A stretch of DNA of 64,000 bases from Rhodothermus marinus DSM 4252 (GTDB taxonomy: Bacteria; Bacteroidota; Rhodothermia; Rhodothermales; Rhodothermaceae). The DNA lies in contig NC_013501.1 in the NCBI RefSeq assembly GCF_000024845.1, positions 934,001-998,000 on the forward strand. The letters are read 5' to 3'. Positions 4,934-55,791 of the stretch are shown here, piece after piece. The notes below the pieces were generated by a model. It saw only the letters and a list, made by a program, of their open reading frames with translations, was not told the origin of the DNA and did not search any database. Made by a program: the position numbers and the translations under genes. The stretch's first letter is position 1, and every line of letters starts with the position of its first letter.

Positions 4934-6331
4934 ATGGTTCTGCGCTATAGTCTGCATTACCTGATTGCCCGGGGAATTCCGGCACTGGTAAACTTTCTGG
5001 CAATTGCCGTCTACACGCGGCTGCTGTCGCCGGATGCGTATGGGCGCTACATTCTTGTCCTGGCCGGCGTCAACATGGCCAATCTTACCGTTTTTCAATG
5101 GCTTCGGCTGTCCCTGGTGCGTTACCTGCCGGCGTATCAGGAGCAGGAAGGCGTCTTGCTGGGCACCATTGGCCGGATTTACCTGATGCTGATGGCGGGC
5201 GTGGGCGTGCTGGGTGGGCTGGCGGCTGGGCTGGTCGGTGTGGGGGACTGGCAGCGTCTGGTGCTGGTGGCGGTGCTGTTGTTGTGGATGCAGGCCTGGT
5301 TTGAACTCAATGTCGAACTGTTAAGGGCTCGGTTGCAGACGCGCGCGTATGGCTGGGCGATGGGCGTGCGGAGCGTGGGCGCCCTGGGTCTGGGCACGTT
5401 GTTCATTCTGGGCGGACTGGGGGCGTTCGGGCCCCTGCTGGGTATGACATTGAGTATGGCAGGAGTTGGCCTTTTCTTTGTTTACCAGAACTGGCGAACT
5501 ATACGGCTTCAATTAAATTGGAATCAATTTATTCCATTATTACGTTTTGGACTCCCGTTAGCTGGTAGTGTATTTTTGAACTTGGCGCTCAATGCGTCTG
5601 ATAGATTCTTAATAGCATTGTTGATCGATGAAGGAAAGGCAGGTATTTATTCAGCAGGATATGATTTGGCATATCAACCTATTATATTACTTTTCAGTGT
5701 TGTAAACCTGGCTTCATATCCACTAATCGTAAGAGCATGGGAGAATAGAAAGGAAAGAATGGTTAAAGAATATTTATCAGACAACATAACATTGTTGTTG
5801 GCAATTGGTTTTGCATCCGGCATTTTTGTTACCGAATTTTCTGATCTTATTGTGAAAACGGTGTTGGGAGAAAAGTTTTATGATGCTACTATAATAGTGC
5901 CATGGATAGTGTGGGGAACATTATTGGAAGGAATTCGGATATACCATTCAGATTTTAGTTTTCATTTGACTGAAAATACAAAAAAACAGTTGTATGTGGT
6001 GATGTGTGGGCTTTTTGTTAATTTAATTGTAAATTTGATTTATATTCCTCGAGTGGGTATGATTGCTGCAGCCTGGTCAACATTGATAGCTTTTGGCTGT
6101 GCTTTATTGCTTAGTATTTGGTGGGGAAGGCGATTAATTCTTTTTACTCTGATATCAAAAAAAGTTATTTGGGTAGTAACCGCAGGGATTATTGTGCTTT
6201 TTTGTGTAAAGTTTTTGAAATCAAATCTTGATTCTGTGGAAGTTATGATAATCAGTATTTTGTTGTGTTTGCTTTATGTTTCTTCTGTTTTTTATTTATT
6301 AGTTCGAAATATAAAGATTCCCACTGATTGA
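4934..6331 (+). CDS. Wzx-like polysaccharide flippase (MOP superfamily)
   Basis: Polytopic inner-membrane protein of 465 residues with about twelve to fourteen hydrophobic segments. It is of the oligosaccharide flippase type that moves lipid-linked sugar units across the inner membrane. The N-terminal pattern (FLAIAVYTRLLSPDAYGRY) is characteristic of the family. The first ~180 codons are GC-rich like the rest of the chromosome. From about 5465-5510 the DNA becomes AT-rich in the same frame, so the gene looks mosaic. Its last 80 bases overlap the convergent glycosyltransferase. The sugar substrate is unknown; the neighbouring glycosyltransferases and EpsG-like polymerase support a Wzx/Wzy-type pathway. 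Confidence 0.85.
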   Translation: MVLRYSLHYLIARGIPALVNFLAIAVYTRLLSPDAYGRYILVLAGVNMANLTVFQWLRLSLVRYLPAYQEQEGVLLGTIGRIYLMLMAGVGVLGGLAAGLVGVGDWQRLVLVAVLLLWMQAWFELNVELLRARLQTRAYGWAMGVRSVGALGLGTLFILGGLGAFGPLLGMTLSMAGVGLFFVYQNWRTIRLQLNWNQFIPLLRFGLPLAGSVFLNLALNASDRFLIALLIDEGKAGIYSAGYDLAYQPIILLFSVVNLASYPLIVRAWENRKERMVKEYLSDNITLLLAIGFASGIFVTEFSDLIVKTVLGEKFYDATIIVPWIVWGTLLEGIRIYHSDFSFHLTENTKKQLYVVMCGLFVNLIVNLIYIPRVGMIAAAWSTLIAFGCALLLSIWWGRRLILFTLISKKVIWVVTAGIIVLFCVKFLKSNLDSVEVMIISILLCLLYVSSVFYLLVRNIKIPTD

Positions 6332-8857: not shown

Positions 8858-9898
8858 ATGGTATACATAATAGGATGGCTGCTTGTTTACTATTATTTTG
8901 CAATGCGTTTTTTTCTGAAACGTCACCTTAAGGTGATTGCTGGAGGGGTAATTTTACTTTTAAGTTTGATTGCGATCTTCAGAGGCTCTGTTGGAACCGA
9001 CACAGCTACTTATGAAAGATTGGTCACGCGTATAGATACCTGGTCAGGCCTTGAGCCCGCCTCCTGGATTCTGATGTATGTTTTGAATTTGTGGTTAGAC
9101 GATCCTGTTTGGGTGGTCAGAGCATTTTCTGGGATTTTTGCTGGAATTTTATTGTGGTTTGTTTATAAGTCGGATGAGGAGGAATTGTTTTTTTTGATGG
9201 CTTTCTTTGTTCCTCTATTTTTTTATAATTACAGCATGAATGTAATTCGTGTGGGTATAGCTTTCGCCATTTTGTTGTTGGCTCTTCAGAAGGATAGAAG
9301 GCAGGAGTATAAAAAAGCAATTTTGCTTGGAATATTATCTGTTCTGTTTCATTATTCTATCTTATTTGCTCTTTTCTTTCTGTGGTTTAATCACGATTAT
9401 AACAAAGAGAATGTGTGGAATAGAAAGAATTTATTTTTAATCTTTGTTGTTTTGTCTTTAATTGCTATTTTGGTTGTTTTGAATGAGCACTACTTTCTTT
9501 CAAAACTGGCAATTTATGCTTATCTGGAAGCTCCAAGTTTGTTTTCCGGGCTTTCGCGTATTATGTTGGGACTTGTACTGTTGGCTCCAATACCCTTCAG
9601 CAATATCTTAGAATATCAGAAGAAAAGGATTGTTTATAGCTCTTTGTTTTTTATGATTGTGTTTTTCAGTATGGGTATTTATGTTACACCTCGTCTGCTG
9701 GATATGGTGAATCTGTTGATTCCGATAGCAATGCTGCGTGCCTATCGGCGCGTAAATGAACCAATGGACTGGCGCTTCAAGGCCGCCCTGTTTGTGGCCG
9801 GATTGGGCGGTGCCATCGGAATGTATCGCTACATGCTTAACGAGAGTTTCTGGTCGCCCTCGCCGTTCCTTCCCTACCACACGATCTTCGACCGCTAA
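8858..9898 (+). CDS. EpsG/Wzy-like polysaccharide polymerase
   Basis: Polytopic membrane protein of 346 residues with around ten hydrophobic segments. After the first segments it has FRGSVGTDTATYERL, the R-x-x-x-GTDT-x-x-Y signature of EpsG-family proteins, which are thought to polymerise exopolysaccharide repeat units. The body is AT-rich; the last ~50 codons, from about 9740, are GC-rich. The stop overlaps the stop of the convergent M19 peptidase by 3-4 bases. Together with the flippase it suggests a Wzx/Wzy-type export route, though no chain-length regulator is in view. Confidence 0.78.
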   Translation: MVYIIGWLLVYYYFAMRFFLKRHLKVIAGGVILLLSLIAIFRGSVGTDTATYERLVTRIDTWSGLEPASWILMYVLNLWLDDPVWVVRAFSGIFAGILLWFVYKSDEEELFFLMAFFVPLFFYNYSMNVIRVGIAFAILLLALQKDRRQEYKKAILLGILSVLFHYSILFALFFLWFNHDYNKENVWNRKNLFLIFVVLSLIAILVVLNEHYFLSKLAIYAYLEAPSLFSGLSRIMLGLVLLAPIPFSNILEYQKKRIVYSSLFFMIVFFSMGIYVTPRLLDMVNLLIPIAMLRAYRRVNEPMDWRFKAALFVAGLGGAIGMYRYMLNESFWSPSPFLPYHTIFDR

Positions 9899-11094
9899 GG
9901 TGTCTGCAGCTCGGCGGCGGCTTCGACGGCCTCCCAGACGCGCAGCAGGTTGCCGCCCAGGATTTTTTCGAGGTCCTCCTCGCTGTAGCCGCGGCGCAGG
10001 AGCTCGGCCACCAGGTTCGGATACATCGACACGTCCTGCAGCCCCTCCGGCAGGGCAAAGACGCCGTCGAAGTCGGAGCCCAGCCCGACGTGATCGACGC
10101 CCACGAGCTGCACGACGTAGTCGATGTGATCGGCCACGTCGGCCACCGTGCCGATGGGATGACGCTTGCGCTGCAGCGCCATCCAGCGACGCCCTTCCGG
10201 CGAATCGGGATCGATGCCCTGCGCTTCCAGTTCGGCCCGCAGTTGCCGACGGAGCGAGTCGCCCATGGCCTGATATTCGCCGCGCAGAAACGAGGAGCCG
10301 AAGTTGATCATGATCACACCGCCGTTGGCGGCCAGCGCCCGGATCATCTCATCGCTCATGTTGCGCTCCCAGCCAGGCGTGAAATGCCGGGCCGACGAAT
10401 GCGAGGCGATCACCGGGGCCTTCGTGCGGCGCAACACGTCGTAGAAAGCGCTGTCGGATACGTGCGAGACGTCGATGAGCATGCCGAGCCGGTTCATTTC
10501 GTCGACGACCTGTTCGCCGAAGGGGCTCAGGCCGTTCCAGACGCGCGTGGTGTCGTAGGAGCTGTCGCAGATCTGGTTGACGCGGGCATGGGTGAGCGTG
10601 ATGTACCGGATGCCCCGCTCGTAGAAGTAGGCGACGTTGCGCAGGTCGCCTTCCAGACCGGAGCCGTTCTCCATGCCCATGAGCAGCGCAATGCGCCCCT
10701 CCCGGTGGGCCCGGCGCACGTCCTCCGGCGAGCGCGCCAGCATGAATTTGTCGGGGGCCTGACGGGCCAGCGCTTCGACCATGTCGATCAACGAATCGGC
10801 CAGCGCTTTAGAAGCACCGGGCGTGTCCTGCAGCTCGGCCGGCAGGTAGATGGAGAAAAACGGGGCGTCCAGACCGCCCGCGCGGGCGCGCTCGTAGTCA
10901 AAGTCGCCCAGCTCGGTGCGCCGGGTGATGTCTTCCGGAAACTGACGCAGCCGGTAAGGCACATCGATGTGGCCGTCGATGAGGATGAATCGCTGGGTCA
11001 GTTCGCGGGCCCGTTCGTAAAGCCGCTGCTCCTCAGAGCGGCAGGCCGCCAGCAGTCCGGCCAGCAGGAGCAAAAAGACAACGGAGCGTATCAT
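9895..11094 (-). CDS. M19 membrane dipeptidase family lipoprotein
   Basis: Zinc dipeptidase of 399 residues (renal dipeptidase family). MIRSVVFLLLLAGLLAAC is a lipoprotein signal with a lipobox Cys near residue 18, so the enzyme is probably anchored in the periplasm or outer membrane. Metal motifs are present: IDGHIDVPYRL, GMENGSGLEGD, IDVSHVSDSAF, VIASHSSARHF and GLGSDFDGV. Family members cleave dipeptides, including D-amino-acid dipeptides. It is last in a minus-strand group with Mpl, so a role in using cell-wall-derived dipeptides is plausible but inferred. A start 51 bases upstream is in frame, but it would place extra residues before the signal peptide. Confidence 0.9.
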   Translation of the reverse strand: MIRSVVFLLLLAGLLAACRSEEQRLYERARELTQRFILIDGHIDVPYRLRQFPEDITRRTELGDFDYERARAGGLDAPFFSIYLPAELQDTPGASKALADSLIDMVEALARQAPDKFMLARSPEDVRRAHREGRIALLMGMENGSGLEGDLRNVAYFYERGIRYITLTHARVNQICDSSYDTTRVWNGLSPFGEQVVDEMNRLGMLIDVSHVSDSAFYDVLRRTKAPVIASHSSARHFTPGWERNMSDEMIRALAANGGVIMINFGSSFLRGEYQAMGDSLRRQLRAELEAQGIDPDSPEGRRWMALQRKRHPIGTVADVADHIDYVVQLVGVDHVGLGSDFDGVFALPEGLQDVSMYPNLVAELLRRGYSEEDLEKILGGNLLRVWEAVEAAAELQTP

Positions 11095-18901: not shown

Positions 18902-18934
18902 TTTGAACCCGTCCGGATTTTTATCGTAGCTTTG
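18902..18934 (+). promoter_or_regulatory. Bacteroidota-type promoter of pyk
   Basis: TTTG at 18902-18905 and TAGCTTTG at 18927-18934 are exact matches to the -33 (TTTG) and -7 (TAnnTTTG) elements known from Bacteroidota primary sigma promoters. The spacer is 21 bases. Transcription would start about 20 bases before the pyk ATG. Confidence 0.6.
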
Positions 18935-18962: not shown

Positions 18963-20402
18963 ATGACACGCCGCACGAAGATCGTCTGTACGCTGGGACC
19001 GGCCTCGTCGGATCGCGAGACCATCCGAAAGCTCATCGAGGCCGGCATGGATGTGGCCCGGTTGAATTTTTCGCACGGCAACCATGAGGAGCATCGCCGC
19101 CGCATCGAAATCGTCCGGGAGGAGGCACGGAAGCTCGGGCGCGATGTGGCCATCCTGCAGGATCTGCAGGGCCCTAAGATCCGCCTCGGTGAAGTGGCCG
19201 AGGGCGGCATTCTGATTCACGAGGGGCAGCGGCTGGTCCTGACGGCCCATCCCGAGCGGGCCGACGGACAGACCCGCATCTTCGTGAACTATCCCACGCT
19301 GGCGCAGGACGTGGAGCCCGGCGGCCGCATTCTGCTCGACGACGGCCTGCTGGAATTGAAAATCGTGGACGTGGAAGGCGAGGACGTGATTACGGAGGTG
19401 GTGGTCGGCGGGCCGCTTCGCTCGCGCAAAGGCGTCAACCTGCCCCACCTGCGCAACTCCACGCCGTCGCTTACCGAAAAGGACCTGCGCGATCTGGAGT
19501 TCGGCCTGCAGATGGAAGTGGACCTGATCGCGCTTTCGTTCGTGCGAAGCGAAACAGACGTGGCCGATCTGATGCGCCGCGTGCGGGACTCCGGCAAGGA
19601 AGTGCGCGTGATCGCCAAGATCGAAAAGCCGGAGGCGGTGGCCAAGATCGATCAGATTCTGGCGCAGGCCGACGGGATCATGGTGGCGCGCGGTGATCTG
19701 GGCATCGAAATGCCGCTGGCCGAGGTGCCGGCCGTGCAGAAACGCATCATCCGGAAGTGTCTGGCCGCGGCCAAGCCGGTCATCACGGCCACGCAGATGC
19801 TCGAAAGCATGATCGAGAACCCGCGGCCCACGCGTGCCGAGGCCAGCGACGTGGCCAATGCGGTGCTGGACGGCAGCGACGCGCTGATGCTCTCGGGCGA
19901 GACGGCCACCGGTAAATATCCGGTGCGTGTGGTGCAGGTGATGGACGAGATCATCCGGCAGGCCGAACGCTTCCGGCGCGAGATTCGCGAAAGTCGGGGC
20001 CACTGGCTGCACATCCCGAAGGGCGCCGACGAGGCCGAGTCGGTTACCGAAGCCATCGGCTATACGGCCTGCCAGCTTGCCGAGCAGGTGGGCGCCGTGG
20101 CGATCGCCTGCCTGACGGCCACGGGCAGCACGGCCCGCATGATCGCCCGCCATCGGCCGCCCGTTCCGGTCTATGCCTTCACCGACAACCCTCGCATTGT
20201 CCCGCAGCTCAGCCTGCTCTGGGGCACGCGCGCCTTTTCGATTCCCTTTCAGCGCGACACGGACCAGGGCGTGCAACTGGTGCACCGGATTCTGAAAGAA
20301 CAGGGGCTGGTCAGGCCGGGCGATCTGGTGGTCATCACGGCCGGAATGCCGCTGCCGGCCAAAGGACGCACCAACATGGTGCACGTCAGCCGAATCGAGT
20401 AG
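18963..20402 (+). CDS. pyk: pyruvate kinase
   Basis: Glycolytic enzyme of 479 residues converting phosphoenolpyruvate and ADP to pyruvate and ATP in the cytoplasm. TKIVCTLGPASSDRETIRKL and GMDVARLNFSHG are the N-terminal signatures. VIAKIEKPEAV contains the catalytic Lys and metal Glu. MVARGDLGIEMP and ATQMLESMIENPRPTRAE form the metal and substrate loops. The length is that of the simple bacterial form without the extra PEP-utiliser-like domain. The final 17 bases overlap the end of the convergent phosphatidyltransferase gene. Confidence 0.97.
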   Translation: MTRRTKIVCTLGPASSDRETIRKLIEAGMDVARLNFSHGNHEEHRRRIEIVREEARKLGRDVAILQDLQGPKIRLGEVAEGGILIHEGQRLVLTAHPERADGQTRIFVNYPTLAQDVEPGGRILLDDGLLELKIVDVEGEDVITEVVVGGPLRSRKGVNLPHLRNSTPSLTEKDLRDLEFGLQMEVDLIALSFVRSETDVADLMRRVRDSGKEVRVIAKIEKPEAVAKIDQILAQADGIMVARGDLGIEMPLAEVPAVQKRIIRKCLAAAKPVITATQMLESMIENPRPTRAEASDVANAVLDGSDALMLSGETATGKYPVRVVQVMDEIIRQAERFRREIRESRGHWLHIPKGADEAESVTEAIGYTACQLAEQVGAVAIACLTATGSTARMIARHRPPVPVYAFTDNPRIVPQLSLLWGTRAFSIPFQRDTDQGVQLVHRILKEQGLVRPGDLVVITAGMPLPAKGRTNMVHVSRIE

Positions 20403-50250: not shown

Positions 50251-50820
50251 ATGGTACTGCCGATTCACGTATACGGAGATCCGATTCTGCGTGAGCGGGC
50301 GCAGCCGGTGGCCGCCGATTCGCCCGAGCTGCAGCAGTTGCTCGACGACATGGTCGAGACCATGCACGCGGCCTCGGGCATTGGCCTGGCCGCGCCGCAG
50401 GTGGGGCGTCGGGAGCGCGTTTTTGTGGTGGACCTGACTCCCATGAAGGAGGAGCTGGAAGCCGAGGGGGAGACGCTCCCGCCCATGCCCATGTTCTTCA
50501 TTAACCCGGAAATCGTCTGGACCAGCGAGGAGCAGTGCAGCTTTGAGGAGGGCTGTCTGTCCATTCCGGACGTCCGGGAGGTGGTCGAGCGGCCCGTGGC
50601 CGTCCGCATTCGCTACCTGGATCGGCAGTTCCGGCCTCAGGAGCTGGAGGCCCGGGGCATGCTGGCCCGGGTGATCCAGCACGAGTACGATCATCTGGAA
50701 GGCATTCTCTTCATTGATCGCATCAGCGCGTTTCGACGGCAGCTACTCCGGCGTCGCCTGCGCGAGATTGCGCGGGGGCAGGTTTCGGCCGAATACCCGC
50801 TGGCCCTCAGCCGCGTGTAA
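50251..50820 (+). CDS. def: peptide deformylase
   Basis: Metalloenzyme of 189 residues that removes the formyl group from nascent proteins. The three motifs are GIGLAAPQVG (43-52), EEGCLSIP with Cys102, and QHEYDHLEG with His144, Glu145 and His148. A TTG 15 bases upstream is in frame, but the family start is VLPIHVYGDPILRE. It is 30 bases after ruvX and probably cotranscribed. Confidence 0.96.
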   Translation: MVLPIHVYGDPILRERAQPVAADSPELQQLLDDMVETMHAASGIGLAAPQVGRRERVFVVDLTPMKEELEAEGETLPPMPMFFINPEIVWTSEEQCSFEEGCLSIPDVREVVERPVAVRIRYLDRQFRPQELEARGMLARVIQHEYDHLEGILFIDRISAFRRQLLRRRLREIARGQVSAEYPLALSRV

Positions 50821-50840
50821 CGGTTGCTTGATGCCGCCGT

Positions 50841-50873
50841 CTTGCATCTACGGGCTGGCGGTCGATATCTTTC
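50841..50873 (+). promoter_or_regulatory. Bacteroidota-type promoter of the small exported protein / TonB receptor
   Basis: CTTG (50841-50844) and TATCTTTC (50866-50873) are separated by 21 bases, close to the TTTG / TAnnTTTG elements and with the same spacing as the pyk promoter. It lies 25 bases before the small protein's ATG. Confidence 0.45.
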
Positions 50874-50897
50874 CCGCTGATTCCAGCGTCTCTGGGT

Positions 50898-51230
50898 ATG
50901 CTGGCCATTTTGCGTAAACGGGCGGCGGGATTATCCCTGCTCTTTCTGATCGGCGCTTTCGGGTTGCCGGCGGCGCATCTGGTGCGCCATGTCCTGCAGC
51001 CCGAATCAGCCGTCTGTACGGTCGGTGAGGGACTTTACCGGAGCCCGGACTGTCAGCACCTGCCCGATCCCTGCCGTCTGTATGCCAGTCTACGCTCGCT
51101 GCCCGCCGTTACCCCGACGTTCCCGGAGCTGTGGACGCAGTGGGAGGAGCTTCCCGTTGCGAAAGTCCGGGTGATTCTTTCCACCCTGTCTTTCGCCCAT
51201 GCCAGCCGTGCGCCTCCGGTTCTGTGCTGA
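50898..51230 (+). CDS. small exported Cys-containing protein, unknown function
   Basis: Predicted protein of 110 residues that I do not recognise. Residues 1-26 look like a signal or anchor segment (LSLLFLIGAFGLPAAHL). The mature part has four Cys and scattered His: HLVRHVL, then AVCTVGEGLYR, CQHLPDPC, and Cys at the very C-terminus. It is 81 bases ahead of a TonB receptor, with a promoter-like sequence 25 bases upstream. Small His/Cys exported proteins often accompany metal-linked receptors, so a metal-binding accessory role is possible but unproven. Confidence 0.6.
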   Translation: MLAILRKRAAGLSLLFLIGAFGLPAAHLVRHVLQPESAVCTVGEGLYRSPDCQHLPDPCRLYASLRSLPAVTPTFPELWTQWEELPVAKVRVILSTLSFAHASRAPPVLC

Positions 51231-51311
51231 AGCCGGCCGGTTCAATCGGCCTGGCTATCTCTCCTGATTGTCCAGCGTCACCTTTCTCAGCACAGAATTG
51301 GGGTGTCAGCC

Positions 51312-53591
51312 ATGAAGCAGTCTGTACGGACAGGACTACTCGTGCTTATTCTGCTCGTTTCGGGAATTTCAACGGGACTTGCGCAGGTACTGGAAGGACG
51401 GGTCACCGACGCAACGACCGGGGCGCCGCTGATCGGCGCCAACGTGCTCGTGCTTTCGGTGCAGACGGGAACCACGACCGACGCGGAAGGACGTTACCGG
51501 CTCCTGCTCCCCCGACCCGGTCGCTATCGCGTACTGTTCAGCTTCGTGGGCTATCAACCGGAAACGCGCGAGGTCGTGCTCTCCGAAGCGGGGCCGGTTC
51601 GTCTGGATGTGGCGCTGACGCCCACCTCCATTGAGGCGCCCGCCGTCACCATTACGGCCAAGGCGCAGGCTACCGATGTGCTTTCGACGCCGCAGGCGGT
51701 GGCCGTGCTCGAAGGCGATGCGCTGCGGCTGGCCCGCGGCATGACGGCCGTCGATGCGCTGGCGCAGACGCCGGGTGTGCATCTGGTGCATACGGGCACC
51801 GGCATTGCCAAGCCGATGATCCGGGGCCTGACGGCGCAGCGTGTGCTGGTGGTGCAGGATGGCATCCGGCAGGAAGGCCAGCAGTGGGGCGACGAGCACG
51901 GCGTGGAAATCGACGCCCACGCGGCCGAGCGCATCGAGGTGGTCAAGGGCCCGGCCAGCCTGCTCTACGGCTCCGACGCGCTGGGCGGGGTCGTGCAACT
52001 GGCCACCGAAGGGCCGTTCGGCTACGACCGGCCGCTCACCGGCGCGGTCACGTTCGAGGGCGCCAGCAACACGCGCATGGGCGGGTTGCATGTGGAAGCG
52101 GGCGGTCGCCAGGGCAACTGGGCCTATGCGGGCAACCTGACGTTCCGACAGGCCGGTGCCTACGACACGCCCCGGGGGACGGTCCCCAACACCGGGCTGG
52201 AGGAACGCAACGGCATGCTTCAGCTCGGCTACGAAAACCACGCCGCGCGCTGGGAGCTGGCCTACAAGCGGTACCGCGCCCGCATCGGATTCTTCGAGCC
52301 GGAGGAAGATGAGGCGACTGCGGAAACGCCCGATCGCTACCGCATCGGGGAGCCTTACCAGCAGGTGGATCATGACCTGCTGCAGCTTCGCTCGCGGTGG
52401 CGCCTGGGAGCCGATCGGCTGGAGCTGAACGCAGCCTGGCAACAGAACCGGCGGCGGGAATTCGGGCACCATCACGAGGCGGACGAGGAAGAGGCGCCCC
52501 ACGTTGACGAGCACGAGGCCCCTTCGCTGTATCTGCGGCTCAGCACCCTGACCTCCGACCTGCGTTTCCACCACCGGCCCCTCGGTCCGCTTTTCGGCAC
52601 GATCGGCCTGAGCGGCTTTTTCCAGCGCAACGAAACGCTGGCCGAGGAGGCGCTTATTCCGGGCGCGCGCACCTGGAACGGGGCCGTGTACGTGTTCGAG
52701 GAGCTGGTGCTACCGCGCCTGACCATCAGCGGCGGGGTGCGGTGGGATGGCCGGCGGCTTTCGGTAGAGGCCAACGAGGACCTTGGTGTGGTGGCCCAGA
52801 CGCGCACCTACAGTGCCTTCAGCGGGGCGGTGGGACTGGCCTGGCAGGTGCGCCCGGATCTGTCGCTGGCCTTCAACGTGGGCCGTGCCTGGCGGGCCCC
52901 CACGCTCAACGAACTCTTTTCGCAGGGCGTGCACGAAGGGACCAGCCGCTTCGAAGTGGGCACGCCGACGCTCCGGCCCGAGCAGAGCCTGAGTCTGGAC
53001 GGCACGCTGCGCTGGCTGCGCCCCCGCTGGTATCTGGAACTGAACGCCTTCGTCAACCGGATCGACCGCTTCATCTTCCCGCGGCCTACAGGCCAGCGTG
53101 ATCCGGACTCGGGGCTTTTTATCTATCAGTACGACCAGGCCCAGGCGCTGCTCTGGGGGGGCGAGCTGCTGCTGAACCTGGGGGTGACCGCGTGGCTGCA
53201 TCTGCACGTGGGTGGCGACGTGACCTACACGGAGAACCGGGAGACCGGCCAGCCGCTGCCGTTTTCGCCGCCGCCGCGTCTGATCACCGGGATCGAGGTG
53301 CACCGGGAGCGCTGGGGGCCGGCCAGCGAGGTCATGCTCCGACTGGGCCCTACGCTGGTGGCCGACCAGCGTCGCGTGGCGCCTGAGGAGGCGCCCACCG
53401 AGGGCTACGTGCTCTGGAATGCGGCGTTTTCGGCCCGCTGGCCGCTGGGCGCCTGGCAGCTGGTAACGGATCTGACCGTGCAGAACCTGCTGGACCGGGC
53501 CTACGTGAGCCATCTCAGCCGCCTGAGACCTTACGGCGTGCTGGACCCCGGCCGTAACGTGCAACTGCGCCTTATGCTGCGGCTACCCTGA
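51312..53591 (+). CDS. TonB-dependent receptor, probably metal-related
   Basis: Outer-membrane receptor of 759 residues. Signal peptide 1-24, carboxypeptidase-regulatory-like domain about 25-110 (GRVTDATTGAPLIGANVLV), plug about 115-225 (RVLVVQDGIRQEGQQWGDEH), then a barrel ending in R-x-M-L-R-L-P. An extracellular loop near 385-405 is His/Asp/Glu-rich (FGHHHEADEEEAPHVDEHEA), similar in kind to the metal-binding loops of ZnuD-type zinc receptors. The plug text resembles ZnuD/copper-receptor relatives. Zinc or another divalent metal is the inferred ligand. The ATG at 51312 is chosen over a GTG 9 bases earlier. Confidence 0.87.
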   Translation: MKQSVRTGLLVLILLVSGISTGLAQVLEGRVTDATTGAPLIGANVLVLSVQTGTTTDAEGRYRLLLPRPGRYRVLFSFVGYQPETREVVLSEAGPVRLDVALTPTSIEAPAVTITAKAQATDVLSTPQAVAVLEGDALRLARGMTAVDALAQTPGVHLVHTGTGIAKPMIRGLTAQRVLVVQDGIRQEGQQWGDEHGVEIDAHAAERIEVVKGPASLLYGSDALGGVVQLATEGPFGYDRPLTGAVTFEGASNTRMGGLHVEAGGRQGNWAYAGNLTFRQAGAYDTPRGTVPNTGLEERNGMLQLGYENHAARWELAYKRYRARIGFFEPEEDEATAETPDRYRIGEPYQQVDHDLLQLRSRWRLGADRLELNAAWQQNRRREFGHHHEADEEEAPHVDEHEAPSLYLRLSTLTSDLRFHHRPLGPLFGTIGLSGFFQRNETLAEEALIPGARTWNGAVYVFEELVLPRLTISGGVRWDGRRLSVEANEDLGVVAQTRTYSAFSGAVGLAWQVRPDLSLAFNVGRAWRAPTLNELFSQGVHEGTSRFEVGTPTLRPEQSLSLDGTLRWLRPRWYLELNAFVNRIDRFIFPRPTGQRDPDSGLFIYQYDQAQALLWGGELLLNLGVTAWLHLHVGGDVTYTENRETGQPLPFSPPPRLITGIEVHRERWGPASEVMLRLGPTLVADQRRVAPEEAPTEGYVLWNAAFSARWPLGAWQLVTDLTVQNLLDRAYVSHLSRLRPYGVLDPGRNVQLRLMLRLP

Positions 53592-53657: not shown

Positions 53658-55148
53658 TCAGCGTGGCCAGCGAATTACGATCGTATCCACACGCCGTAGC
53701 TCGCGGCAACCCGGACGGTCGGCCGGGTTCGGGCAGGGCGGCGGCAGCTCGCCCAGGCCCCGGAAGATTAAGCGTTCCGGCTCGATGCCCTGCTGCTGGT
53801 AATAGTTGTACACGGCCAGCGCACGGCGCAGGGACAGCAGGGCATTGAACGCCTCGCCGCCCACGTAGTCGGTGTACCCGACGAGTTGCACGACCAGCTC
53901 GGGGCAGCTCTGAAGCACGCGAGCGTTCCGTTCGAGAACGGCACGGGCCGAATCGGTGAGGGTACTTCTGCCAAACTCAAAGGAGACCGATTCCAGCGTC
54001 GAGATCAGATCGCAGGCGGTCGGCTCCACCACGATCCGGGCCTGCACCGAGTCCCGCCCCAGCTCGTTGTCGGCGATCAACGAGACGGTGTAGGTGCCGG
54101 GCCGGTCGAAACGGTGCGCGGTCCTGGCATGGAGCGACATGGTGCCGGCCCGCAGGCCTTCTTCAAGGCGGTACTGGTTGTCGGTGGTCAGGGCGCCGTT
54201 GCCATCGCCAAAATTCCAGAAGTAGCGGATGGATGGCGCCCCTTCGATCTGCGCTTCAAAGGTGACAAAATTGCCGCGCTTGATCGTGTCGGCCAGTGGC
54301 TGGAACGAGACGATGCGGACGGCCCGCGGCGTTTCGACGACCTCGACCAGATGGGTCGCCGTGCGCACCACACCGGCCGCATTGCGCGCCTGCACCTGAA
54401 TCTCGTAGCGACCGGGCAGGCGATAGCGATGTTCGACCACCGGGCCGGTGTACTGCGTGCCGTCGCCCATGAACCAGATGTAGGAAACGGGCTGCGTAGC
54501 CTGATCATCGACGCGGGCCGTGAAGGTGCCGTACTCCCGGCGCTGAAGCTGCGCGGGACCTTCGATGTTCAGGGTCCGGATCGGGATCGGCAACGGGCGG
54601 AACGTGATGCGCAGGCCGGCTCCCAGAAAGCCCAGCCCGTCGAAGGCAGCACGACCGCTCCGGATACCTTCGGAAGCCCGGTCAGGAAAGACCGCGTTGG
54701 CGCTTCCTTCGACGAAAAAGGCCACGTTGCGCGTGAGCACATAGTCGGCGCCCAGCGCGGCGTTAATTCCGAAGCCCGTCTTGTAGCCGCCCAGCGTGAT
54801 GTGCGGACCGATGTTGAAATAATGGCTGAGGCGCTTGAAAGGAAAAACGCGCCAGCGAAGCAGCGCCTGAATGATGTGAAAACGATGATAGGTGCGGCTG
54901 ACCTTGGGATAGTTGCCGCCTTCGTAGGCCAGCCCGAGGCTCAATCCGAGCGGGAACTGATAGCCCAGTTCGCCTTTGAGCGCATACGGCTCGACCGCAT
55001 AGGTCGAGTAGTCCGTTTCGCTGAGCGACGGACCATAGCCGAAGCGCAGGAAGGGTCCGGGCGCAACCCAGACGCGCTGCGCGAAAAGGTCCGGTGCCGC
55101 CAGCAAAAGCAGCACGAAAAACCCGTAACGTAAACCCCCGTGTCGCAT
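53658..55148 (-). CDS. OmpA family outer-membrane protein with PKD domains
   Basis: Protein of 496 residues. Signal peptide 1-23 (ending DLFAQ), N-terminal beta-barrel-like region about 25-180, two PKD domains (YIWFMGDGTQYTGPVVEHRY and YFWNFGDGNGALTTDNQYR), and a C-terminal OmpA peptidoglycan-binding domain about 380-490 (VQLVGYTDYVGGEAFNALLS). PorE/PG-binding proteins and OmpA-PKD fusions are common in Bacteroidota surface systems. It probably links outer membrane and cell wall. It shares a terminator with the TonB receptor and a divergent region with merC-like. Confidence 0.87.
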   Translation of the reverse strand: MRHGGLRYGFFVLLLLAAPDLFAQRVWVAPGPFLRFGYGPSLSETDYSTYAVEPYALKGELGYQFPLGLSLGLAYEGGNYPKVSRTYHRFHIIQALLRWRVFPFKRLSHYFNIGPHITLGGYKTGFGINAALGADYVLTRNVAFFVEGSANAVFPDRASEGIRSGRAAFDGLGFLGAGLRITFRPLPIPIRTLNIEGPAQLQRREYGTFTARVDDQATQPVSYIWFMGDGTQYTGPVVEHRYRLPGRYEIQVQARNAAGVVRTATHLVEVVETPRAVRIVSFQPLADTIKRGNFVTFEAQIEGAPSIRYFWNFGDGNGALTTDNQYRLEEGLRAGTMSLHARTAHRFDRPGTYTVSLIADNELGRDSVQARIVVEPTACDLISTLESVSFEFGRSTLTDSARAVLERNARVLQSCPELVVQLVGYTDYVGGEAFNALLSLRRALAVYNYYQQQGIEPERLIFRGLGELPPPCPNPADRPGCRELRRVDTIVIRWPR

Positions 55149-55323: not shown

Positions 55324-55791
55324 ATGTTGACCGAAAAATCACGGTGGGATCGGGTGGGGATCTGGCTTTCCGGGATCTGTCTTGTCCACTGTCTGCTGCT
55401 CCCACTGGCGCTGGTGGTGTTGCCGGTCAGTGCACTGGTGATCACCTGGCACGAAGACGTGCATATCGTATTTGCCGTGCTGCTGGTGCCCACCACGGCG
55501 CTGGCGTTTTATCAGGGCTATCGCCGACATCGTCAGAAGCGGGTGCTGTGGGGATTCGGTCCGGGACTGGCGCTGGTGCTGCTGGCCAGCTTTCCCGGCC
55601 ACGAAGCGCTGGGGGTGCTGGGCGGTACGCTGGTCACGATGCTCGGCAGCGCCTTGCTCATCTGGGGACACTGGCAGAACTGGCGGCTGCAGGCCCGGTG
55701 TGCGGTGCAGCCCGTGGCCGAATCCAAAGAAAATGCCACCGCAGGCACTACTGAATCCGCTTCGTTTTATACGATTTCTGAAAAATCATAG
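55324..55791 (+). CDS. MerC-like membrane protein
   Basis: Inner-membrane protein of 155 residues with four hydrophobic segments. SGICLVHCLLLPLALVVLPV contains the C-x3-HC-x3-P pattern of the MerC family, originally described as a mercury transporter. In Bacteroidota MerC-domain proteins commonly sit in zinc-repressed or metal-uptake loci, fitting the nearby receptor. The second Cys pair of mercury-type MerC is not obvious. Ligand unknown. Confidence 0.82.
   Translation: MLTEKSRWDRVGIWLSGICLVHCLLLPLALVVLPVSALVITWHEDVHIVFAVLLVPTTALAFYQGYRRHRQKRVLWGFGPGLALVLLASFPGHEALGVLGGTLVTMLGSALLIWGHWQNWRLQARCAVQPVAESKENATAGTTESASFYTISEKS

Follow-up and report, generated by a model that had tools for sequence, protein, structure and literature searches.

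A candidate translation-arrest leader peptide upstream of a ZnuD-like TonB-dependent receptor gene in Rhodothermus marinus and its counterparts in Bacteroidota

The genome of Rhodothermus marinus DSM 4252 (3.39 Mb, two contigs; assembly GCF_000024845.1) carries a small open reading frame (ORF) directly ahead of a gene for a TonB-dependent receptor. Both lie in the window analysed here, a stretch of 64,000 nucleotides from contig NC_013501.1 (positions 934,001 to 998,000 of the forward strand), whose own numbering is used throughout. The gene order is relA/spoT-like, DNA-binding protein, ruvX-like, def, the small ORF and the receptor, followed by OmpA/PKD, MerC and RND genes; names 5′ of the small ORF were assigned by eye. 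An initial annotation of this DNA had described a 110-residue protein with an exported, Cys-containing mature part, encoded 81 nt before the receptor. The sequence does hold a 110-codon ORF at that place, whose product starts with a hydrophobic stretch and has four cysteines. The annotation had further proposed that the encoded protein is an accessory factor in a metal-acquisition unit, and had named co-occurrence with related receptors and the presence of Zur sites as checks. The small ORF is called the leader here. The receptor start is taken as the ATG at 51312, 81 nt past the leader stop. A mechanical GTG start at 51303 is a less likely alternative, because aligned relatives keep the ATG and, upstream of it, a GGAG-like stretch (seen by eye). 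The features of the leader and receptor are as follows.

50898..51230, + strand: leader ORF (upstream ORF, uORF), 110 codons, for a small exported-looking protein; from the ORF list and sequence, conserved in 7/7 Rhodothermus
50919..50975, + strand: hydrophobic N-terminal segment, leader residues 8-26, a putative export signal or membrane anchor; by eye and from the alignment
50976..50990, + strand: H27-x3-H31, both His invariant in 7/7 Rhodothermus and in 7/7 selected leaders of other genera in the order; alignments
51063..51074, + strand: PDPC, leader residues 56-59, with the invariant C59 44 residues before Arg104; alignment
51207..51218, + strand: RAPP, leader residues 104-107, a putative ribosome-arrest motif with three residues after it; alignment and the available parts of PMC9426467 and PMC12992588
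51231..51256, + strand: predicted RNA hairpin just after the leader stop; folding against shuffles, z -3.6
51312..53591, + strand: TonB-dependent receptor, ZnuD-like, 759 aa; domain, sequence and fold matches
51894..51899, + strand: receptor plug E195-H196, aligned with ZnuD Asp-99/His-100; sequence alignment
52467..52514, + strand: receptor loop rich in His/Asp/Glu, residues 386-401; sequence and model
52932..52934, + strand: receptor H541, aligned with ZnuD His-499; sequence alignment

By similarity search the leader gene is present in all seven Rhodothermus genomes, flanked each time by def on one side and the receptor on the other. A direct search with the leader gave nothing convincing in the other 33 of the 40 genomes (best E 0.004); its similarity is confined to Rhodothermus, so that the wider set described below was reached only through genomic position. 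Pfam and NCBIfam scans of the small protein return no family match, and its export is judged by eye from the hydrophobic N-terminus. The leader copies of the other six genomes are 89, 85, 53, 53, 50 and 36% identical to that of the window, and the receptors 95, 82, 83, 77 and 73% (the receptor of genome G005 runs off its contig). In the four more distant Rhodothermus the leader retains 36-53% identity whereas the receptor retains 73-83%, the leader being the faster to diverge. Outside the N-terminus its conservation is focused on H27, H31, the PDPC segment, the terminal RAPP and the spacing between Cys and RAPP, and the remainder changes quickly. The residues invariant in all seven are H27, H31, P56-D57-P58-C59, L61, A63 and R104-A105-P106-P107, plus N-terminal residues; C59 is the only one of the four cysteines (C40, C52, C59 and C110) to be kept throughout. 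In two species the stop codon directly follows RAPPV, and in genome G006 a GTA stands at the position of the ATG start codon of the others. The dN/dS ratio of the leader in four pairs is 0.31, 0.32, 0.59 and 0.08, and the codons of RAPP differ synonymously between species. Because of this range of ratios and the synonymous changes inside RAPP, the leader is, by comparison of the sequences, under purifying selection at the protein level, and by the same comparison the 110-codon ORF is a real gene.

The C-terminal RAPP, a feature that the initial annotation did not record, sets the leader apart within the window, where it is the sole ORF with a C-terminal R[AG]PP among 253 ORFs of 60-290 aa. Receptors related to that of the window were collected from 296 genomes of the phylum, with three candidates scored per genome; with the E-value limit set at 1e-60, this listed 125 matches from outside Rhodothermus. 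The best 80 receptor loci were taken with wide flanks and the other 45 with 2 kb upstream (1.2 kb for L323); neighbour, hairpin, shuffle and family counts refer to the best 80 loci only. A leader was scored as a same-strand ORF of 60-260 aa that ends at most 600 nt upstream and carries R[AGSD]PP with no more than 15 residues after it. These ORFs were read from the earliest start, and some lengths are therefore too long. Such an architecture precedes 60 of the best 80 receptors, or 61 with a length limit of 290 aa, and the 61 loci come from 59 of the 77 genomes and represent 20 of the 24 family codes. Among the weaker 45 matches it is found in 18, a count in which seven matches starting within the receptor were given a longer upstream reach. 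Altogether a leader precedes 79 of the 125 related receptors from other genera, against none of the 30 siderophore and 30 SusC receptors that served as TonB controls from the same phylum, and the controls remain at 0/60 with a reach of 1400 nt and a length of 290 aa. The co-occurrence check named at the outset is thus positive. Of the 19 receptors without a scored leader in the best 80, three are preceded at the expected position by a variant motif (KSPP twice, PRAAP once), and two others have no such ORF, MerC being the next gene upstream. Leaders of similar His/Cys architecture that end in KSPP instead of R[AG]PP lie upstream of the receptor at loci L116 and L184.

An organism-named set, obtained by scanning genome contigs with the receptor alignment, has the leader in 67 of 80 cases and includes Hymenobacter, Pedobacter, Chitinophaga, Flavobacterium, Prevotella and one of two Gemmatimonadota metagenome-assembled genomes (MAGs). 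This set is not independent of the first, being mostly of the same phylum with some shared organisms and one Rhodothermus, and L283 has less than 500 nt upstream. Locus L242, from a Gemmatimonadales MAG and one of the two Gemmatimonadota loci, has its receptor at 6001 and a RAPP leader just upstream; it reflects either a range beyond one phylum, or transfer, or mis-binning.

The 61 leaders from outside the genus and the seven of Rhodothermus form a set of 68, in which the motif is RAPP 34 times, RGPP 33 times and RSPP once, and is followed by 1-5 residues in all save one (67/68). A cysteine stands 40-48 residues before the motif Arg in 68/68 and in 18/18 further leaders (86/86 together). In the 68 it belongs to a CXXC in 43, to a CXC in two and is single in 23. 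When the residues after position 25 of the 68 leaders were shuffled 2000 times, a Cys fell at this spacing in a mean of 18.4 leaders and a maximum of 31. The named set has a Cys 38-50 residues before the motif in 66 of 67 leaders, and an alignment of seven leaders selected from other genera in the order has as its invariants H..H, Cys and RxPP, as in Rhodothermus. As far as sequence comparison goes, the shared architecture across members is firm, and a Cys kept at 40-48 residues in 86 of 86 otherwise dissimilar proteins provides strong comparative evidence for a mechanism acting on the nascent chain.

The receptor has clear plug, barrel and CarboxypepD domains in Pfam. Its best NCBIfam match is the heme receptor model TIGR01785, at 210 bits below the cut-off of 316.85, and the ZnuD model NF038289 (kind 'exception') comes third, at 119.6 bits below its cut-off of 950. 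The best match by sequence in the PDB is ZnuD (2e-26). An AlphaFold2 model built with 33 sequences is of fair confidence (pLDDT 81.2), and its best fold match is ZnuD with both Foldseek and VIA-align 2. In the latter, ZnuD scores a Z of 41.0 (2.0 Å over 583 residues), followed by ChuA at 38.1 and OprC at 37.9; the lead over the next fold families is about three Z units, and one ZnuD entry, 4rdr, ranks only 15th. A shared fold alone shows no substrate. The zinc site of ZnuD comprises Asp-99, His-100, Glu-340 and His-499, according to the available text of PMC4557270. With the ZnuD numbering matched to the chain by our own count, E195, H196 and H541 align with three of these four residues, the counterpart of Glu-340 not being placed, and they are invariant in an alignment of 21 sequences and nearly so in one of 33. 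H196 and H541 also align with His residues of a heme receptor, which has no acidic counterpart aligned to E195. On these sequence and model comparisons zinc is the likeliest substrate, though not a proved one. The loop rich in His/Asp/Glu that the initial annotation had placed near residue 385 is present at about residues 386-401, in a low-confidence region between two barrel strands of the model, and is poorly conserved even within Rhodothermus. A His-rich loop was rejected as a correlate of the leader as too weak: at least three His occur in 15 of 64 receptors with a leader, and the mean number of loop His is 1.75 with a leader (n=64) versus 1.36 without (n=14).

In common with ZnuD of Neisseria meningitidis the window receptor has the fold, by alignment the acid-His pair of the plug and the barrel His, and an external loop rich in His/Asp/Glu; unlike ZnuD, to which it is about 22% identical, it has an extra CarboxypepD-like N-terminal domain. 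To our knowledge, no leader peptide is known for ZnuD. In the part of the literature covered, no report of one for ZnuD-like receptors was found.

The leader shares its main traits with CruR of Bordetella pertussis, a DUF2946 (PF11162) protein that, according to the accessible sections of PMC9426467, heads an operon with the TonB receptor gene bfrG/crtA and acts as a nascent-chain copper sensor controlling that receptor. CruR carries a CXXC and, 45 residues on, a RAPP three residues before its end, with a spacing conserved within one or two residues. The RAPP is required for receptor expression and the CXXC for copper control, and in the authors' model copper relieves the arrest and Rho then stops transcription (PMC9426467). 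CruR arrest has been shown in vitro, with the third and fourth RAPP residues in the P and A sites, as given in the available text of PMC12992588. Like CruR, the window leader is small and exported-looking, is the first gene before a TonB receptor, has its RAPP three residues before the end with a Cys about 45 residues earlier (44 here), and is separated from the receptor gene by an untranslated gap (81 nt versus 162 for CruR). Unlike CruR, it gives no PF11162 match, has a PDPC with one Cys at the place of the CXXC and an HxxxH after the signal, and precedes a ZnuD-like receptor; the gene after that receptor is a convergent OmpA and not PepSY_TM.

RAPP leaders before TonB genes have already been reported in general (PMC12992588), and the window leader has the architecture and position of this TonB-related RAPP/RGPP class, with the motif near the C-terminus of a small exported-looking protein encoded upstream of a co-directional gene. 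ZnuD-like receptors, zinc and a fixed Cys spacing in that class do not appear in the available text of PMC12992588, whose source data probably list many of these ORFs. CutF of Rhodobacter capsulatus, as described in the accessible part of PMC9973294, is likewise a nascent exported copper sensor; it is encoded ahead of a metal gene, its C-terminus carries a proline-rich motif, and a stem-loop lies downstream. It differs in the opposite sign of its effect (copper prolongs a stalling-like state), in having CxxxC and no RAPP, and in controlling a multicopper oxidase. The principle is thus shared with CruR and already known; the sensor make-up and the receptor class differ.

On this evidence it is highly probable that the leader is a translation-arrest uORF through which a transition metal controls the ZnuD-like receptor gene that starts 81 nt downstream. 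The arrest, its release by metal and the sign of the effect are proposed by analogy with CruR, and the arrest geometry is inferred. RAPP (104-107) would halt the ribosome near the end of translation, when Pro106 occupies the P site and Pro107 the A site, and the leading edge of the arrested ribosome would lie at about the stop codon, at the foot of the predicted hairpin. C59 would then stand 47 residues away from the peptidyl-transferase centre and just past the end of the exit tunnel; H27 and H31 would be still farther away, inside the translocon or past it. When metal is scarce, the arrest would persist and the receptor would be made, the parked ribosome either denying Rho access to the RNA, the mechanism proposed for CruR, or holding the leader RNA in an open state, as happens with SecM and CutF. 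When metal is sufficient, Cys and His of the nascent chain would bind it, the arrest would be released and the receptor would be switched off. We give zinc somewhat better than an even chance of being the sensed metal, rather than copper, heme or another. The fuller version, in which the leader senses zinc co-translationally through C59 together with H27 and H31 and switches a ZnuD-type receptor independently of Zur, is tentative and falls a little short of even.

The 26-nt hairpin of the window has a z of -3.6 for 40 nt against mononucleotide shuffles. In other Rhodothermus it is strong twice (-4.0 and -4.4) and moderate once (-1.7), so that four of the seven lie below -1.5. A rho gene is present in the genome (main match 666 bits), and the hairpin and rho together are compatible with the Rho form and the RNA-structure form of the mechanism alike. 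A second Rho-like match outside the window (G000:C1:2890727-2891815) reaches 438 bits, below the equivalog cut-off. Two terminator-like sites occur within the leader, with 0.6 expected.

Several observations weigh against control by an arrest peptide of this kind. A strict leader is lacking at 46 of 125 related receptors, so that it is not obligatory, and its share drops with receptor distance from 61/80 to 18/45. The hairpin is weak or absent in three of the seven Rhodothermus (z -1.1, -0.1 and +0.5), and at the other 61 loci the mean z is only -0.88, with 20/61 below -1.5. The bias of C over G, taken as a hint of a Rho site, is not special at the leader and was not used: bubble windows number 8/56 in the leader and gap, 19/367 in the receptor and 46/633 in the RND gene, with similar maxima. 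PF11162 gives no match to the leader at E up to 1 and none in the whole host genome at E up to 10; the best among ten scanned relatives reaches 19.9 bits versus a cut-off of 23.7. The CXXC needed for copper control by CruR is absent, the leader having one invariant Cys and a Pro at the partner position. A profile comparison of the Rhodothermus leaders with the other members aligned only 29 N-terminal columns (signal and HxxxH) at a probability of 79%, and because of this the common descent of the whole leader is not established. Full homology of the leaders across members is likely from their sequences, though not proved, and the arrest motif could have arisen repeatedly. Separately, one contig carries three DUF2946-like matches (G013:C109:287-451, 9633-9923 and 19786-20010), of which one is over the Pfam cut-off and one, a weak match, is the leader of a ZnuD-like receptor.

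The accessory role put forward in the initial annotation, that of an exported metal-binding chaperone or scavenger working with the receptor in the periplasm, would account for the hydrophobic N-terminus, the conserved His and Cys and the tight link to a metal receptor. It is nevertheless very unlikely. The evidence favours a regulatory leader peptide, because conservation beyond the N-terminus is concentrated in H27, H31, the PDPC segment, the RAPP and the Cys-RAPP spacing and because CruR offers a precedent. The leaders carry, at the very end of the chain, a motif already known to arrest ribosomes, and its distance from the Cys is kept in 86/86 leaders while the intervening sequence is not. 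Neither motif nor spacing has an evident periplasmic reason, and CruR itself was unseen in proteomics, could not be produced and gave no complementation in trans, according to the accessible sections of PMC9426467. What stands of the proposed metal-acquisition unit is a receptor nearest to a zinc transporter and a leader that co-occurs with it; the accessory role, the promoter element and the inclusion of MerC fare poorly. A chance ORF, or a plain leader without function, would be short, fast-changing and without a family match, as this one is. Its presence in 7/7 genomes of the genus, the purifying selection and the 0/60 controls make that barely credible.

If arrest is accepted, the question becomes which signal relieves it. 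An arrest peptide that senses copper like CruR, ahead of a receptor importing copper, finds support in the CXXC of 43/68 members, as in the copper-responsive CruR, and in OprC among the next-best folds of the receptor. The window leader has no CXXC, however, the receptor is nearest to ZnuD, and the accessible text of PMC12992588 reports the class of RAPP leaders before copper-related genes as missing from Bacteroidota; copper is thus unlikely, if still the foremost alternative to zinc. Distinctly unlikely is a peptide that monitors protein export in the manner of SecM, or heme or iron, and not the transition metal taken up. RAPP leaders are best known before sec and yidC genes (PMC10987492, available part), yet the gene downstream of this leader is not a localisation factor. 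For heme speak the TIGR01785 match, below its cut-off, and the alignment of both receptor His with those of a heme receptor, but ZnuD too was first annotated as a heme transporter (PMC4557270, available text). The Cys at a fixed distance suggests metal sensing over either of these signals.

At the level of transcription, the promoter-like element that had been described before both genes is not upheld by consensus or by conservation. The interval 50780-51340 holds no sigma-70-like site and no exact TTTG/TANNTTTG match, and the word CCAGCGTC, present before both starts, was discarded as an element since relatives do not conserve it. Elsewhere in the window a Bacteroidetes-type promoter consensus is matched exactly at 5546-5578 and 18902-18934 on the + strand, two matches versus 0.17 expected. 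The search for a Zur site was negative: the interval 50781-50900 holds no palindrome with arms of 7-11 nt and one mismatch or none. Nor is any 9-mer shared with the 350 nt before the ZnuA-family match, a weak test as that stretch partly overlaps the ZnuA frame. The host genome has one Fur-family and one ZnuA-family match.

Beyond the receptor, the OmpA/PKD gene (53658-55148, - strand) is convergent to it and stands between the receptor and the MerC gene, and the RND gene lies 3′ of MerC on the opposite strand.

55324..55791, + strand: MerC-domain membrane protein, a separate transcription unit and a doubtful member of the system; PF03203

The MerC gene that the initial annotation had noted at 55.3 kb is there (90.6 bits versus a cut-off of 27.6), although its membership of a unit is weak given the convergent OmpA between and its rarity elsewhere. 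Four of the five Rhodothermus with enough flank have MerC some 2 kb past the receptor, each with a convergent OmpA gene between the two (genome G003 is without MerC). At other loci MerC is found on the same strand within about 1.1 kb upstream in 6/80, from two family codes, and once more at 6 kb; in four of the six a leader or leader variant lies between MerC and the receptor. None of 40 control windows, 20 from each of the siderophore and SusC sets of 30 loci, contains MerC. As a fixed general partner of the receptor MerC was rejected. It is not on the receptor's transcript here, but may have a part in the same physiology.

In other genera, many ZnuD-like receptors are directly followed by a member of a lipoprotein-like family of about 190 aa (ITT..LTL ... 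DLDG.GGN ... LDES), a family that does not adjoin the window receptor. By eye it accounts for about 20 of 43 same-strand next genes, for example L067:8261-8836, L072:3371-3931, L083:8402-8968, L112:8327-8875, L118:8242-8835 and L188:8410-8964, among others. Six examples scanned gave no Pfam match and no NCBIfam match near cut-off.

The spacing between Cys and motif gives a precise design for mutagenesis, and post-transcriptional control by zinc (or copper) becomes testable in a group where metal regulation is little studied. If the zinc reading is true, such control would extend across Bacteroidota, including the Rhodothermus side, and would occur once in a Gemmatimonadales genome, and a CXXC copper-type sensor would have been rebuilt with one Cys and two His. 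If the leader is indeed an arrest peptide, it would explain the hypothetical protein that precedes a large class of metal receptors in Bacteroidota as a cis-acting sensor and not an accessory.

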